Assembly (NCBI GenBank): GCA_016125075.1
Contig: WGMO01000015.1
Coordinates: 1-64,000, forward strand
Direction of reading: 5' to 3'
DNA: 64,000 bases
From: Terrimonas sp.
Lineage (GTDB): Bacteria > Bacteroidota > Bacteroidia > Chitinophagales > Chitinophagaceae
Shown here: positions 693-49,598 of the stretch, piece after piece
Position numbering within the stretch: position 1 is the stretch's first letter
Layout: every line of letters starts with the position of its first letter
The notes under the pieces: model-generated
Database searches by the model: none
Told to the model about the DNA's origin: nothing
Seen by the model: the letters and a program-made list of their open reading frames with translations, nothing else
Program-made: the position numbers and the translations under genes

Positions 693-1152
693 ACAAATTT
701 TTTTTAGTGATGATTTGGTGAGCGTTTATCAACAGAGCGGGATCCGGTTTACGGAGGGGCAGATTACAGGTAAAAGTTAATTATAACTTCTGAATCAATG
801 ATGTTTTTTTTGGCTATAGATTAAACCTGGACTAAGATTATTGAAATTTTGCAAAAGGCCTGGTCCGTATTAACATGTAAATAACCTGAAAAATGGCATC
901 AAAGAGTTATTATGATGCCACAATTTGTTAAGGATCTTTAACTGCAGCTCCACTCATCACAGGCCCATTACCAATTCCGGTTTTAGGTAGATAAACGGAC
1001 CAGCTTACCTACGCTATCGATAGAATATATATAAGGTCGTAGAGCTACAGTATGCCGGCTTCATTTACACCCTCGTCTACTTTCAAAAATTTCAGTGATA
1101 AACCAGGTTAGGTTTGGAAAATATTTCAATATTCAAACTTAAAATCAGGAGT
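693..1152. other. 460-bp intergenic region between divergent genes
   Basis: No convincing gene is visible. It contains an 8-bp inverted repeat, TGGCATCA (894-901) and TGATGCCA (913-920), around an 11-nt loop, and the short palindrome CTATCGATAG (1014-1023). TAGGTTTG at 1109-1116 matches the Bacteroidota -7 element TAnnTTTG, but I see no TTTG at the expected -33 distance, so it is a weak promoter candidate for the small secreted protein gene at 1153. Confidence 0.4.
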
Positions 1153-1494
1153 ATGAAAAAGAGAATTAAAAATTGGGTAAGTGTCTTTGCCCTGCTGCTG
1201 TTGGTAAACGAGATTCCTGCACAGCAAAAAATCAAACAGGCCCCCTGGGTATCAGAAAAAGGTTATTGGGTTTTGCAGACAAATGTAAACACCCCGCTTT
1301 ATTGTACCGTCAGTTTTTATAACAATGCTAATTTACTGATGTATTCAGAAAGACTGGTAGGTATACGACTTGACACAAATAAAAGAAAGGTCAAAATGAA
1401 ACTCAAGAAAGCCCTTGAAACCATTGACCTGGTATGGCAGGAAACCGGGGTTCCAACAGGGAACAAGCAGTATGTAATGGCGATGCTTCGTTAA
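1153..1494 (+). CDS. Small secreted protein of unknown function
   Basis: I do not recognise the family. The 113-residue product starts at ATG 1153 (MKKRIKNWVSVF), which gives a clean signal peptide: a basic start, a hydrophobic core LLLLVNEIP and a cleavage-like AQQ near residue 25. An upstream in-frame start would bury that signal. The mature part is about 88 residues, looks beta-rich, and has many Asn, Tyr and Lys residues. It ends 142 bp before the LytS-type kinase gene on the same strand, so the two may be co-transcribed. Small secreted proteins of this sort are often found beside LytS/LytTR pairs in Bacteroidota, but a functional link here is only inference. Confidence 0.65.
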   Translation: MKKRIKNWVSVFALLLLVNEIPAQQKIKQAPWVSEKGYWVLQTNVNTPLYCTVSFYNNANLLMYSERLVGIRLDTNKRKVKMKLKKALETIDLVWQETGVPTGNKQYVMAMLR

Positions 1495-47604: not shown

Positions 47605-48027
47605 TTAACTGCTATGATCGGCAATGATCAGCCATTGGCCGTTTATTTTTCGGAAGATAAGGGAATAATGCCCGCTGGCATCACCGATACTCCTTTTCAG
47701 GTACCATTTGCCTACAACCATATAATACTCTTTGGAAAGCTGCCTGATATGCAGGACTGTTGAGGTGAATTCACCCATGGCCGCTTTCCCGGGATAATTT
47801 TTCTTATAGTTGTCAAGTGTGTTTTGCCATCCATAGGTAATCCCCGATTTTCCGATGAACATCAGCGAATCGTTTTTCCAATACGTCTCCATAAAGGTGG
47901 CAAGATCGGCTTTGTTCCAGGCCACGACCTGTGCATCCATAGCTTTTAAGATGGCCTTTTCATCCTTTGATTGGGCGGATAAAAATTGGCTGATAAAGAG
48001 GAGTAAGGGGGAGCAAAACTTTTTCAT
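47605..48027 (-). CDS. Secreted DUF4440/NTF2-like protein
   Basis: A 140-residue exported protein with a signal peptide (MKKFCSPLLLFISQFLSAQS). The mature part is a NTF2-like fold: KAILKAMDAQVVAWNKADLA, YWKNDSLMFIGKSGITYGW, GHYSLIFRKINGQWLIIADH. Such proteins bind small ligands or act as folding partners. It is a single gene between the prohibitin and merC-like genes. Confidence 0.85.
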   Translation of the reverse strand: MKKFCSPLLLFISQFLSAQSKDEKAILKAMDAQVVAWNKADLATFMETYWKNDSLMFIGKSGITYGWQNTLDNYKKNYPGKAAMGEFTSTVLHIRQLSKEYYMVVGKWYLKRSIGDASGHYSLIFRKINGQWLIIADHSS

Positions 48028-48064: not shown

Positions 48065-48457
48065 TCAATGGTTGCAATCAGATGAGTGGCAGTGGTTGGC
48101 TACGCGGCAGGACCGCCAGTTATAATAATGAGCCGATACGATCAGGATCACCGCGGGCGCCAGGAACCAGTATTGGAGGCTGTGATAATATTGCTTGAGC
48201 ACCAGGAATACAATACCGGCCGTGAACAGGAGTACCGGGAAAAACCGGTGATGGTGTTTGAGGTATCCGTGTAACAATGAATATCCCCCAATCAAGAAGG
48301 CCAGGACGATCATACCCGTCTCAAAAAAGATATTGTCGATGATATTAATACCAAAAAGCGGCAAACTGCTGAGCAACAGGGGAAGCAACGCGCAATGGAT
48401 GGCACAGGCCAGCGTAGCGGTAATTCCTAAGGCATCCCAGTTTAACTTTAATTTCAT
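48065..48457 (-). CDS. MerC-domain membrane protein
   Basis: A 130-residue protein from ATG 48457 (MKLKLNWDALGITATLACAI). It has four helices of the MerC type, with the paired-helix Cys-Ala-Ile-His-Cys segment (ACAIHCALLPLLLSSLP) that typifies MerC domain proteins, and a His/Cys-rich C-terminus (NWRSCRVANHCHSSDCNH) suited to metal binding. MerC members move mercury in mer operons, but stand-alone copies near Fur-type regulators are often linked to other metals. It is divergent from the SCO and Fur-family genes, with a 15-bp palindrome between. Confidence 0.85.
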   Translation of the reverse strand: MKLKLNWDALGITATLACAIHCALLPLLLSSLPLFGINIIDNIFFETGMIVLAFLIGGYSLLHGYLKHHHRFFPVLLFTAGIVFLVLKQYYHSLQYWFLAPAVILIVSAHYYNWRSCRVANHCHSSDCNH

Positions 48458-48465
48458 GCGGGAAG

Positions 48466-48496
48466 CAAAGGTATGATAATGCAACAAAGTTGCAAA
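48466..48496 (-). promoter_or_regulatory. merC promoter with operator in spacer
   Basis: On the minus strand TTTG (48493-48496), a 19-bp spacer and TACCTTTG (48466-48473) form a full Bacteroidota promoter. The 15-bp palindrome TGCAACAAAGTTGCA (48480-48494, perfect 6-bp arms) lies inside the spacer. The promoter end is only 8 bp before the merC ATG, so the leader would be only a few bases. Confidence 0.7.
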
Positions 48497-48546
48497 ATAT
48501 AGTTTATCTTTGGGACAGCTTTCAGAAGGGGGTTAATTTTGCAAAC

Positions 48547-49161
48547 ATGAAAAGAAAAACAATCGTCTATACTGGTTTTTTTGCCGTTTTGGTGCTGATA
48601 TTTTTTATCGTTCTCAATAAGATTGTCCCCGGTTTTAAAGAATCCAGGTTCCCCCCGATCGGAACGGTACAGCCTTTTGATTTCCTCGACCAGGACGGAC
48701 AACATATCACCAAAAAGGATGTGAATGGTAAAGTGTTTGTTGCGGAATATTTTTTCACCACCTGCCAGGGTATCTGCCCGGTCATGAATGGCAATATGAA
48801 GACCATTTATGACGAATTCAGGGACCGGGATGGTTTTTTGATTCTTTCGCATACCTGCGACCCCGCCAATGATTCCGTGGGGAGGCTGAAAGTATATGCC
48901 GATTCACTGGGTGTGGACACCCGTAAATGGCTTTTTTTAACCGGGAGGAAGGACAGCCTCTATAATATGGCCCGGTTCAGTTATAAGATTGACGACCCGA
49001 ACAATAACCTGAAAGATCCAGAGGATGATTTTCTCCATACCCAGTATTGGGCGCTGGTGGACCGGGATGGCAATATCCGCAAAGTGTATGACGGATTGAA
49101 AAGAAACGAGATCAATAAACTGAAAAACGATATAGAAGAATTGCTGGACAAAAAATTATAA
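48547..49161 (+). CDS. SCO1/SenC-family protein
   Basis: A 204-residue protein from ATG 48547 (MKRKTIVYTGFFAVLVLIFF) with one N-terminal membrane anchor and a thioredoxin-like domain outside. It keeps the copper-binding site of SCO proteins: Cys pair in FTTCQGICPVMNGN and the later His in DDFLHTQYWALVDRDGN. SCO proteins deliver copper to cytochrome oxidase or act as redox partners. It lies 17 bp upstream of the Fur-family gene on the same strand. On the plus strand TATCTTTG at 48505-48512 matches a -7 element with the shared palindrome just upstream. Confidence 0.92.
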   Translation: MKRKTIVYTGFFAVLVLIFFIVLNKIVPGFKESRFPPIGTVQPFDFLDQDGQHITKKDVNGKVFVAEYFFTTCQGICPVMNGNMKTIYDEFRDRDGFLILSHTCDPANDSVGRLKVYADSLGVDTRKWLFLTGRKDSLYNMARFSYKIDDPNNNLKDPEDDFLHTQYWALVDRDGNIRKVYDGLKRNEINKLKNDIEELLDKKL

Positions 49162-49178
49162 GGTTTAAAATATTTGTC

Positions 49179-49598
49179 ATGAATATCAGGGTGGAAGACA
49201 TACTTCGCCATAACCGATTAAGCATCACCGGTAGCAGAAAAAAGATCCTGAGCCTTTTTCTTTCTCATGCAGGGGCCCTGGCCCATGGCGATATTGAAAA
49301 GAAAGCCGGGGAAAAATTCGACCGGGTGACCATTTACAGGACCCTGCAGGCATTTGTTGAGAAAGGGATCCTGCATACCATTCCCACTTCGGATAATAAT
49401 GTGCGCTATGCATTATGCAATGACGAATGTTATGAGGGTCATCACCATGACGACCATGTGCATTTTATGTGCAGGCTTTGCGGAACAACCACCTGTATCA
49501 ATGATGCGTATATCCCGGAAGTCAAATTACCGCGGGGATACAATGCCCTCCAGGTGGAAGTGGTAGTGCATGGAATATGTAAGAATTGCAAAAAGTAA
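49179..49598 (+). CDS. Fur-family metal regulator (Zur-like)
   Basis: A 139-residue Fur-superfamily repressor. The N-terminal winged helix is at about 10-85 (SITGSRKKILSLFLSHAGAL, FDRVTIYRTLQAFVEKGI). The dimer domain holds HHHDDHVHFMCRLCGTT and a second CxxC in GICKNCKK; this His-rich segment and double CxxC are typical of zinc-sensing Zur and other metal-sensing members. It may control the merC/SCO divergent pair through the palindrome at 48480-48494. The metal cannot be told from sequence alone. Confidence 0.9.
   Translation: MNIRVEDILRHNRLSITGSRKKILSLFLSHAGALAHGDIEKKAGEKFDRVTIYRTLQAFVEKGILHTIPTSDNNVRYALCNDECYEGHHHDDHVHFMCRLCGTTTCINDAYIPEVKLPRGYNALQVEVVVHGICKNCKK

Follow-up and report, generated by a model that had tools for sequence, protein, structure and literature searches.

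The 15-bp palindrome TGCAACAAAGTTGCA between the divergent genes merC and SCO is a conserved, putative operator. It accompanies merC and a subfamily of Fur-type regulators in related genomes, and there it is also present at genes for ZigA-like GTPases and TonB receptors. From these sequence comparisons we consider one joint explanation probable, namely that a Zur-like repressor, with zinc as the most likely signal, binds the palindrome and blocks merC, and that the MerC protein imports zinc.

Organization of the merC-SCO-regulator locus

The window (the whole stretch of DNA analysed, 64,000 nucleotides) is part of a genome of 3.92 Mb in 32 contigs, and the named organisms closest to it are Chitinophagaceae. 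Start codons read from the sequence placed merC (ATG 48455-48457, minus strand) opposite the SCO gene (ATG 48547), which is followed after a gap of 17 bp by the Fur-like gene (ATG 49179), and the palindrome lies between merC and SCO. The features of the locus are as follows.

47605-48027, minus strand: DUF4440/SgcJ-like gene (PF14534), on the same strand as merC and about 40 bp downstream of it
48065-48457, minus strand: merC, MerC-family membrane protein of 130 amino acids (PF03203, 8.6e-22)
48480-48494, no strand: putative operator TGCAAC-AAA-GTTGCA, a 6-3-6 palindrome (TGCAACAAAGTTGCA), recognized by its conservation at merC
48547-49161, plus strand: SCO1/SenC-family protein of 204 amino acids with the motif CQGICP (PF02630, 84 bits, 1.2e-23)
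49179-49598, plus strand: Zur-like Fur-family regulator of 139 amino acids (PF01475, 9.3e-12; fold matches; sequence match to FurB/Zur)

A total of 55 loci were collected from other genomes, of which 48 (L016-L063) carry close relatives of the regulator and seven distant ones were left out of the site counts. The 48 loci together with 41 rows from further genomes, the window's own included, gave 89 rows (86 distinct loci). These comprised 68 rows with merC (66 distinct) and 21 without it (20 distinct). SCO preceded the regulator in all 89 rows, and was cut by a contig end in 5 of them. The merC-DUF4440 order was found in 24 of the 68 merC rows, DUF4440 was present in 8 of the 21 merC-less rows, and the DUF4440 gene may be cotranscribed with merC.

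Conservation of the palindrome

The preliminary description had reported the palindrome, and it was found exactly at 48480-48494. TGCAAC-N3-GTTGCA without mismatch occurs once in the 3.92-Mb genome, as does the exact string, and all seven of the listed sites with one mismatch fall within ORFs of 271-870 codons. Within the window the palindrome is the sole site at up to one mismatch; since at least one such site appeared in 14 of 100 shuffles, the lone copy is insignificant by itself, and it is the conservation that is significant.

Among the 66 distinct loci with a divergent merC, the palindrome was exact in 37 and had at most one mismatch in 65, the remaining locus (G041) having two mismatches; about 0.05 sites were expected from shuffling in the 68 merC rows. 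Base counts of the 15-mer over these rows showed 66 to 68 identical bases of 68 at positions 2-6 and 10-15, variable bases at the three central positions, and, at position 1, T in 45 rows and A in 20. The core GCAAC-N3-GTTGCA is thus nearly invariant, and the adjoining bases are variable except for a run of A that forms TTTG on the other strand; the A-richness of this flank reflects the -33 element of merC described below.

A scan of 99 related genomes with the word DGCAACNNNGTTGCAWAA gave matches in 37 genomes against 2 for the reversed control. When the longer word TGCAACNNNGTTGCAAAA was used across the phylum, 13 of 296 genomes matched against 1 for the reversed control. Seven of the 15 sites found lie at a MerC gene, a Fur-like gene or both (L082, L384, L090, L385, L097, L390, and L394), and at least six lie within ORFs; the exact word is therefore not general across the phylum. 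The motif had been expected to keep company with metal genes genome-wide. In the own genome only the merC site was clear, in relatives metal genes did lie near the motif, and some sites fell in ORFs in a chance-like manner.

Promoter elements around the palindrome

The words TTTG and TAnnTTTG, which by their consensus would be -33 and -7 promoter elements, were read from the sequence on both sides of the palindrome.

48493-48496, minus strand: merC -33 element TTTG, overlapping the putative operator by 2 bp
48466-48473, minus strand: merC -7 element TACCTTTG, after a 19-bp spacer
48505-48512, plus strand: TATCTTTG, the SCO -7 element of the preliminary description, less likely
48534-48541, plus strand: TAATTTTG, the likelier SCO -7 element, adjoining the ATG, in a position shared with 57 of 66 loci

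The palindrome fills most of the 19-bp spacer of the presumed merC promoter and overlaps two bases of TTTG, which agrees with the placement proposed earlier. TTTG was found in the equivalent place in 57 of the 66 distinct merC loci, and in 38 of the 66 a -7 element resembling TAnnTTTG followed it at 17-22 bp, as judged by a loose pattern. On the SCO side, the window has two TAnnTTTG words. The word TATCTTTG, previously taken for the SCO -7 element, is present, but TAATTTTG is the likelier candidate because TAnnTTTG stands at most 50 bp from the SCO ATG in 57 of the 66 distinct loci. Tested for helical phasing against the site in 31 loci, the position of the SCO -7 element gave a Rayleigh p of about 0.0045 at 10.5 bp and 0.0009 at 9.5 bp, with p below 0.05 over much of a 9-12.5 bp scan; as the periods were scanned, the loci are related and the -7 element was chosen by hand, this statistic is not counted as evidence.

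Association of the site with merC

A search of the 99 related genomes for PF03203 yielded 58 genes in 51 genomes. A site with at most one mismatch was present within 200 bp upstream of 51 of these 58 genes, against 1 of 2900 shuffled sequences, and many of the 51 sites lie on contigs that carry neither SCO nor Fur. The seven MerC-family genes lacking such a site belong to G041 (two genes, one with a two-mismatch site), G007 (two mismatches), G044 (two genes), G085, and G009, the last with a PF03203 match that scores below the family cut-off. In G007 and G041 the regulator and a merC of the C-x2-H-C type are both present, yet the sites at merC there have two mismatches.

The reverse situation was seen in the SCO-Fur loci that have no adjacent merC. 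Out of 20 distinct merC-less loci, 16 had 150 bp or more upstream and were usable, and four truncated ones were left out; 15 of the 16 have no site (at least three mismatches), and only G007 keeps an exact one. In seven loci (L187, L042, L050, L058, L059, L060, and L061) the DUF4440 gene, which elsewhere comes after merC, is 87-259 bp away from SCO, with both merC and the palindrome absent. These loci look like natural deletions, as if merC and the site had been lost together; in an eighth merC-less locus DUF4440 is 1.8 kb from SCO. Three genomes (G005, G035, and G057; loci L187, L190, and L185) contain SCO-Fur, and neither PF03203 nor DGCAACNNNGTTGCAWAA was matched in them.

Since the site is kept with merC and is gone from 15 of 16 merC-less loci, it belongs to merC, and in the window it may control SCO-Fur as well, but in a secondary way. 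The preliminary description had suggested a single metal-sensing circuit at the palindrome that controls both sides. The circuit itself is in keeping with a site that is conserved at merC, lies before stand-alone relatives of the regulator and occurs near metal genes in relatives. Control of both sides found no clear support, SCO-Fur persisting without the site in the 15 merC-less loci.

Properties of the Fur-family regulator

The regulator belongs to the Fur superfamily (PF01475, 45.6 bits against a gathering score of 23.1) and was the one match to this family found in a search of its genome. Its best PDB sequence match was FurB (Zur) of M. tuberculosis (1.3e-10), and with a profile BcFur ranked first and FurB second. 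Foldseek matches of the predicted model were structures of Fur, Zur, PerR, and Mur, with E values down to 8.6e-6. The model had a pLDDT of 79.5, and no geometry was taken from it because the sensor loop (residues 85-89) was below 50.

The metal-binding features named earlier, a His-rich stretch, the pairs C98xxC101 and C134xxC137 in the regulator and the tail HCHSSDCNH in MerC, are all present. The list of regulator residues was right as far as it went but missed C80, C84, and C106, which are nearly invariant. In an alignment of 72 relatives, C98, C101, C134, and C137 were each conserved in all 72, which corresponds to a structural Cys4 site of two CxxC pairs; H66, H93, H95, and C106 were each found in 71, C80 in 69, and C84 in 68.

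C80, which pairs with the YRRC cysteine of FurB, has the position of a Zur-type sensor cysteine; the profile alignment instead pairs the FurB cysteine with C84. The role of this cysteine is represented by C88 of EcZur and C79 of ScZur in the accessible part of PMC6103462. At C106, the same position is Glu in FurB, ScZur, and BcFur and Asp in PerR, so the acidic ligand is absent from the regulator. In Zur proteins the Glu that follows the first CxxC pair acts as a sensor ligand, and with C106 in its place the metal could differ from zinc. Canonical Fur proteins (n = 12, those of 30 that passed the ORF filter) have Glu at position 106 and a gap at both C80 and C84. The NCBIfam Zur equivalog model gave 32.2 bits against a cut-off of 167; this model is of the PRK11639 type, and distant Zurs may also fall short of it. 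Judged from its residues, the regulator would work like Zur and has the look of a zinc sensor, yet it is not filed as Zur because the acidic sensor residue is missing and the NCBIfam score stays below the cut-off.

Genes at the site in relatives and the metal signal

A COG0523 protein of G007, P0001, scored 580 bits against the NCBIfam ZigA cut-off of 600, and a second COG0523 protein scored 564. Among 13 close homologues of P0001 (E at most 2.2e-163), nine have the site 22-648 bp upstream; these include G016, where merC stands between the site and the ZigA-like gene, directly upstream of the latter. The other four have no site within 650 bp upstream, two of them having a site elsewhere in the locus and two none. 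No site was found at any of 17 distant G3E loci. Further neighbours of the site in relatives are genes for TonB receptors, DUF4625 proteins, and small His-rich proteins or His-rich lipoproteins. Zur is known to control COG0523 genes and TonB receptors, according to the accessible parts of PMC6103462 and PMC8000910. Zinc acquisition or COG0523 genes, which mark a Zur regulon, are thus found at the site in relatives and not in the own genome.

The ZigA-like GTPases and TonB receptors beside the site favour zinc. Of the two metals offered in the preliminary description, zinc or copper, the first is now better supported and the second less likely. In a copper circuit, the Fur-family protein would sense copper or another thiophilic metal and control MerC together with SCO for the delivery of copper to cytochrome oxidase. 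The cysteines C80, C84, and C106 would make a cysteine-rich sensor region suited to this reading. SCO itself has CxxxCP in 87 of the 87 rows covering this motif, followed by a His[T/S] pattern in 83, as is proper to the SCO1/SenC family, and it is the neighbour of the regulator throughout the 86 distinct loci, which were selected for close similarity of the regulator. Against copper, SCO is missing beside the 31 stand-alone relatives of the regulator, yet 12 of these carry the site, zinc GTPases of the ZigA-like kind are among the site neighbours, and the SCO-Fur loci mostly lose the site together with merC. We regard the copper circuit as unlikely, and the earlier proposal that SCO is its copper carrier has gene linkage as the sole evidence in its favour.

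Candidate binder of the palindrome

The 12 stand-alone relatives with the site upstream include eight without an adjacent merC. The arrangement in which merC and a Fur-family gene diverge from the site and SCO is absent was also seen in further families of the same order (G075, G077, and G090) and outside the order (G274 and G276); such loci are L103, L214, L215, L390, and L394. At 30 canonical Fur loci, the roughly 3 kb of each contained no site with up to one mismatch. G044 is the one genome that has an ordinary C-x2-H-C merC and lacks a PF01475 match, and this merC is without any site; being a single genome, it gives a hint. In G085 the PF01475 match is canonical only and the MerC gene has no site. 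The sites at stand-alone relatives, their absence at canonical fur and the recurring arrangement point to the neighbouring Fur-family protein, which is most probably the binder of the palindrome.

As the only Fur-family protein found in its genome, the regulator might alternatively be a general iron regulator with MerC as one target of many; just 1 of 60 family genomes (G031) yielded a canonical Fur, at E near 1e-27 or better, while other families of this order often have one. This is very improbable, since one mismatch-free site and seven one-mismatch sites in ORFs are not enough for an iron regulon if its sites are not degenerate, none of the canonical Fur loci has a site, and the cysteine of a zinc sensor is present. 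It is just as improbable that a different regulator binds the palindrome and the Fur-family neighbour is incidental. The 19 of 31 stand-alone relatives that have no site upstream would fit such a regulator, but the 12 that have one, set against none of 30 canonical fur genes, the recurrence of the divergent arrangement in other families and orders, and the joint absence of Fur family and site in G044 speak for the adjacent protein.

MerC as a candidate zinc importer

MerC of the window belongs to PF03203 (78.2 bits against 27.6). C18, H21, C22, and P26 are invariant in 27 aligned relatives, five of which share only 20-30% identity; C-x2-H-C was present in 68 of 68 MerC rows beside SCO, and the His/Cys tail pattern in 56. 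Five helices were predicted in a model of modest confidence (pLDDT 72.8), and a fold search of the PDB gave no match at E up to 0.001. The established role of the MerC family is that of a mercury carrier. A mer-operon function, in which mercuric ion is imported and then reduced, is scarcely credible here despite membership in PF03203, because the best MerA match in the genome reached 313.9 bits against a cut-off of 454.45, no MerR, MerT or MerA was found among the ORFs examined beside merC (45-52.5 kb), the window MerC matched no NCBIfam family at E 0.001, the organomercurial transporter MerC included, and the CC pair is carried instead of C-x2-H-C by the site-less MerC-like proteins of G044 (C202) and G085, the former matching NCBIfam MerC weakly, below the cut-off.

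A gene under a Zur-like repressor is expected to import metal. This expectation, together with the import of mercury by classical MerC (accessible part of PMC6416403), leads to the proposal that MerC imports zinc. The own genome gave no match to ABC-3/ZnuB, Zip or the ZigA-like P0001. Across 60 family genomes, ZIP was present in 6 of 39 genomes with merC against 15 of 21 without it (p 3e-5), and the corresponding numbers for ABC-3 alone were 4 of 39 and 2 of 21 (p 1). About six changes of merC fall on a tree built from rpoB fragments, with four independent pairs on supported branches, so few that a sign test cannot reach 0.05; the tree was made by a quick method, 11 of its 60 inner branches were starred, and G057, having no rpoB match, was left out. 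The anti-correlation of merC and ZIP, which comes mostly from two clades, is a hint that agrees with the importer idea.

Proposed mechanism and relation to known systems

In the proposed mechanism, the Zur-like repressor (49179-49598), loaded with metal that is most likely zinc, would bind the palindrome at 48480-48494 and block RNA polymerase at the overlapping -33 element of merC. When zinc drops, the repressor would be released and merC expressed, and MerC, with C-x2-H-C in its first helix and its His/Cys tail, would most likely carry zinc into the cytoplasm. The regulator would be cotranscribed with SCO, starting on the opposite side of the site, and the bound repressor may also affect the SCO promoter, which would result in autoregulation. 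On this reading the regulon of the own genome consists of one site only, a point that counts against it.

The regulator resembles Zur in its Fur fold, its two structural CxxC pairs, a sensor cysteine after the YxxC position, and a His-rich hinge region, and the system does so in a palindromic operator over a promoter and in ZigA/COG0523 genes and TonB receptors as targets in relatives. It differs in having a cysteine (Cys106) rather than an acidic residue at +5 after CxxC, an extra Cys84, a score under the NCBIfam Zur cut-off, and a MerC-family gene as the main target. The putative operator TGCAAC-N3-GTTGCA also differs from the E. coli box TRWNAYRWTATAWYRTNWCA, as given in the accessible part of PMC6103462. 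MerC is like that of mer operons in being a small multi-helix membrane protein of PF03203, and unlike it in the C-x2-H-C motif with a His/Cys tail, in having no adjacent mer genes and in its Fur-family-type site. The ZigA/COG0523 GTPases of relatives share the site, whereas no homologue of P0001 was found in the window's genome. A further comparison is PgFur of Porphyromonas gingivalis, likewise a divergent Bacteroidota Fur-family protein with two CxxC motifs for structural zinc (accessible part of PMC6613475). According to the same part of that source, PgFur belongs to a Porphyromonas-specific subfamily, its single CPL cysteine is unlikely to bind a regulatory metal, and no link to MerC is made.

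These results suggest that in these bacteria a relative of MerC is the zinc uptake route under scarcity. Most of the MerC-family members here lie far from mer genes, and with the putative operator before 51 of 58 they gain a testable function, metal import under starvation, the metal being probably zinc. For genomes without recognizable ZnuB or ZIP, MerC would answer how zinc might enter. A wider claim, to which we give somewhat less than even weight, is that MerC-family proteins with C-x2-H-C are new bacterial zinc importers and the main target of zinc starvation in Chitinophagaceae and other Bacteroidota, where they would replace ZnuABC/ZIP under a distinct Zur-like subfamily (Cys-for-Glu sensor, TGCAAC-N3-GTTGCA operator), the whole regulon of the window organism being perhaps a single site. 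For zinc control in Bacteroidota, such a system would provide a sensor variant together with an operator word; this phylum goes unmentioned in the Zur reviews PMC6103462 and PMC8000910, as far as a search of their text by term shows. In the full-text literature covered, as far as its accessible parts go, no paper linked MerC to Zur or to the palindrome; subscription papers and RegPrecise lie outside this scope, and a prior description is possible.

Other genes beside the palindrome

Small His/Cys-rich proteins that look exported are encoded beside the palindrome in two distant genomes, in L392 (about 1074-1430, minus strand) and in L096 (1055-1384, minus strand), and the protein of L096 matched no Pfam family. 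In four loci (L106, L108, L113, and L101), the palindrome is accompanied by a TonB receptor and a lipoprotein that is His-Asp-rich or acidic, with an ending like TDIEVxFxxxIQ; the lipoproteins of L106 and L113 gave no Pfam family match. The TonB receptor and the lipoprotein of these loci form a candidate pair for zinc uptake across the outer membrane.
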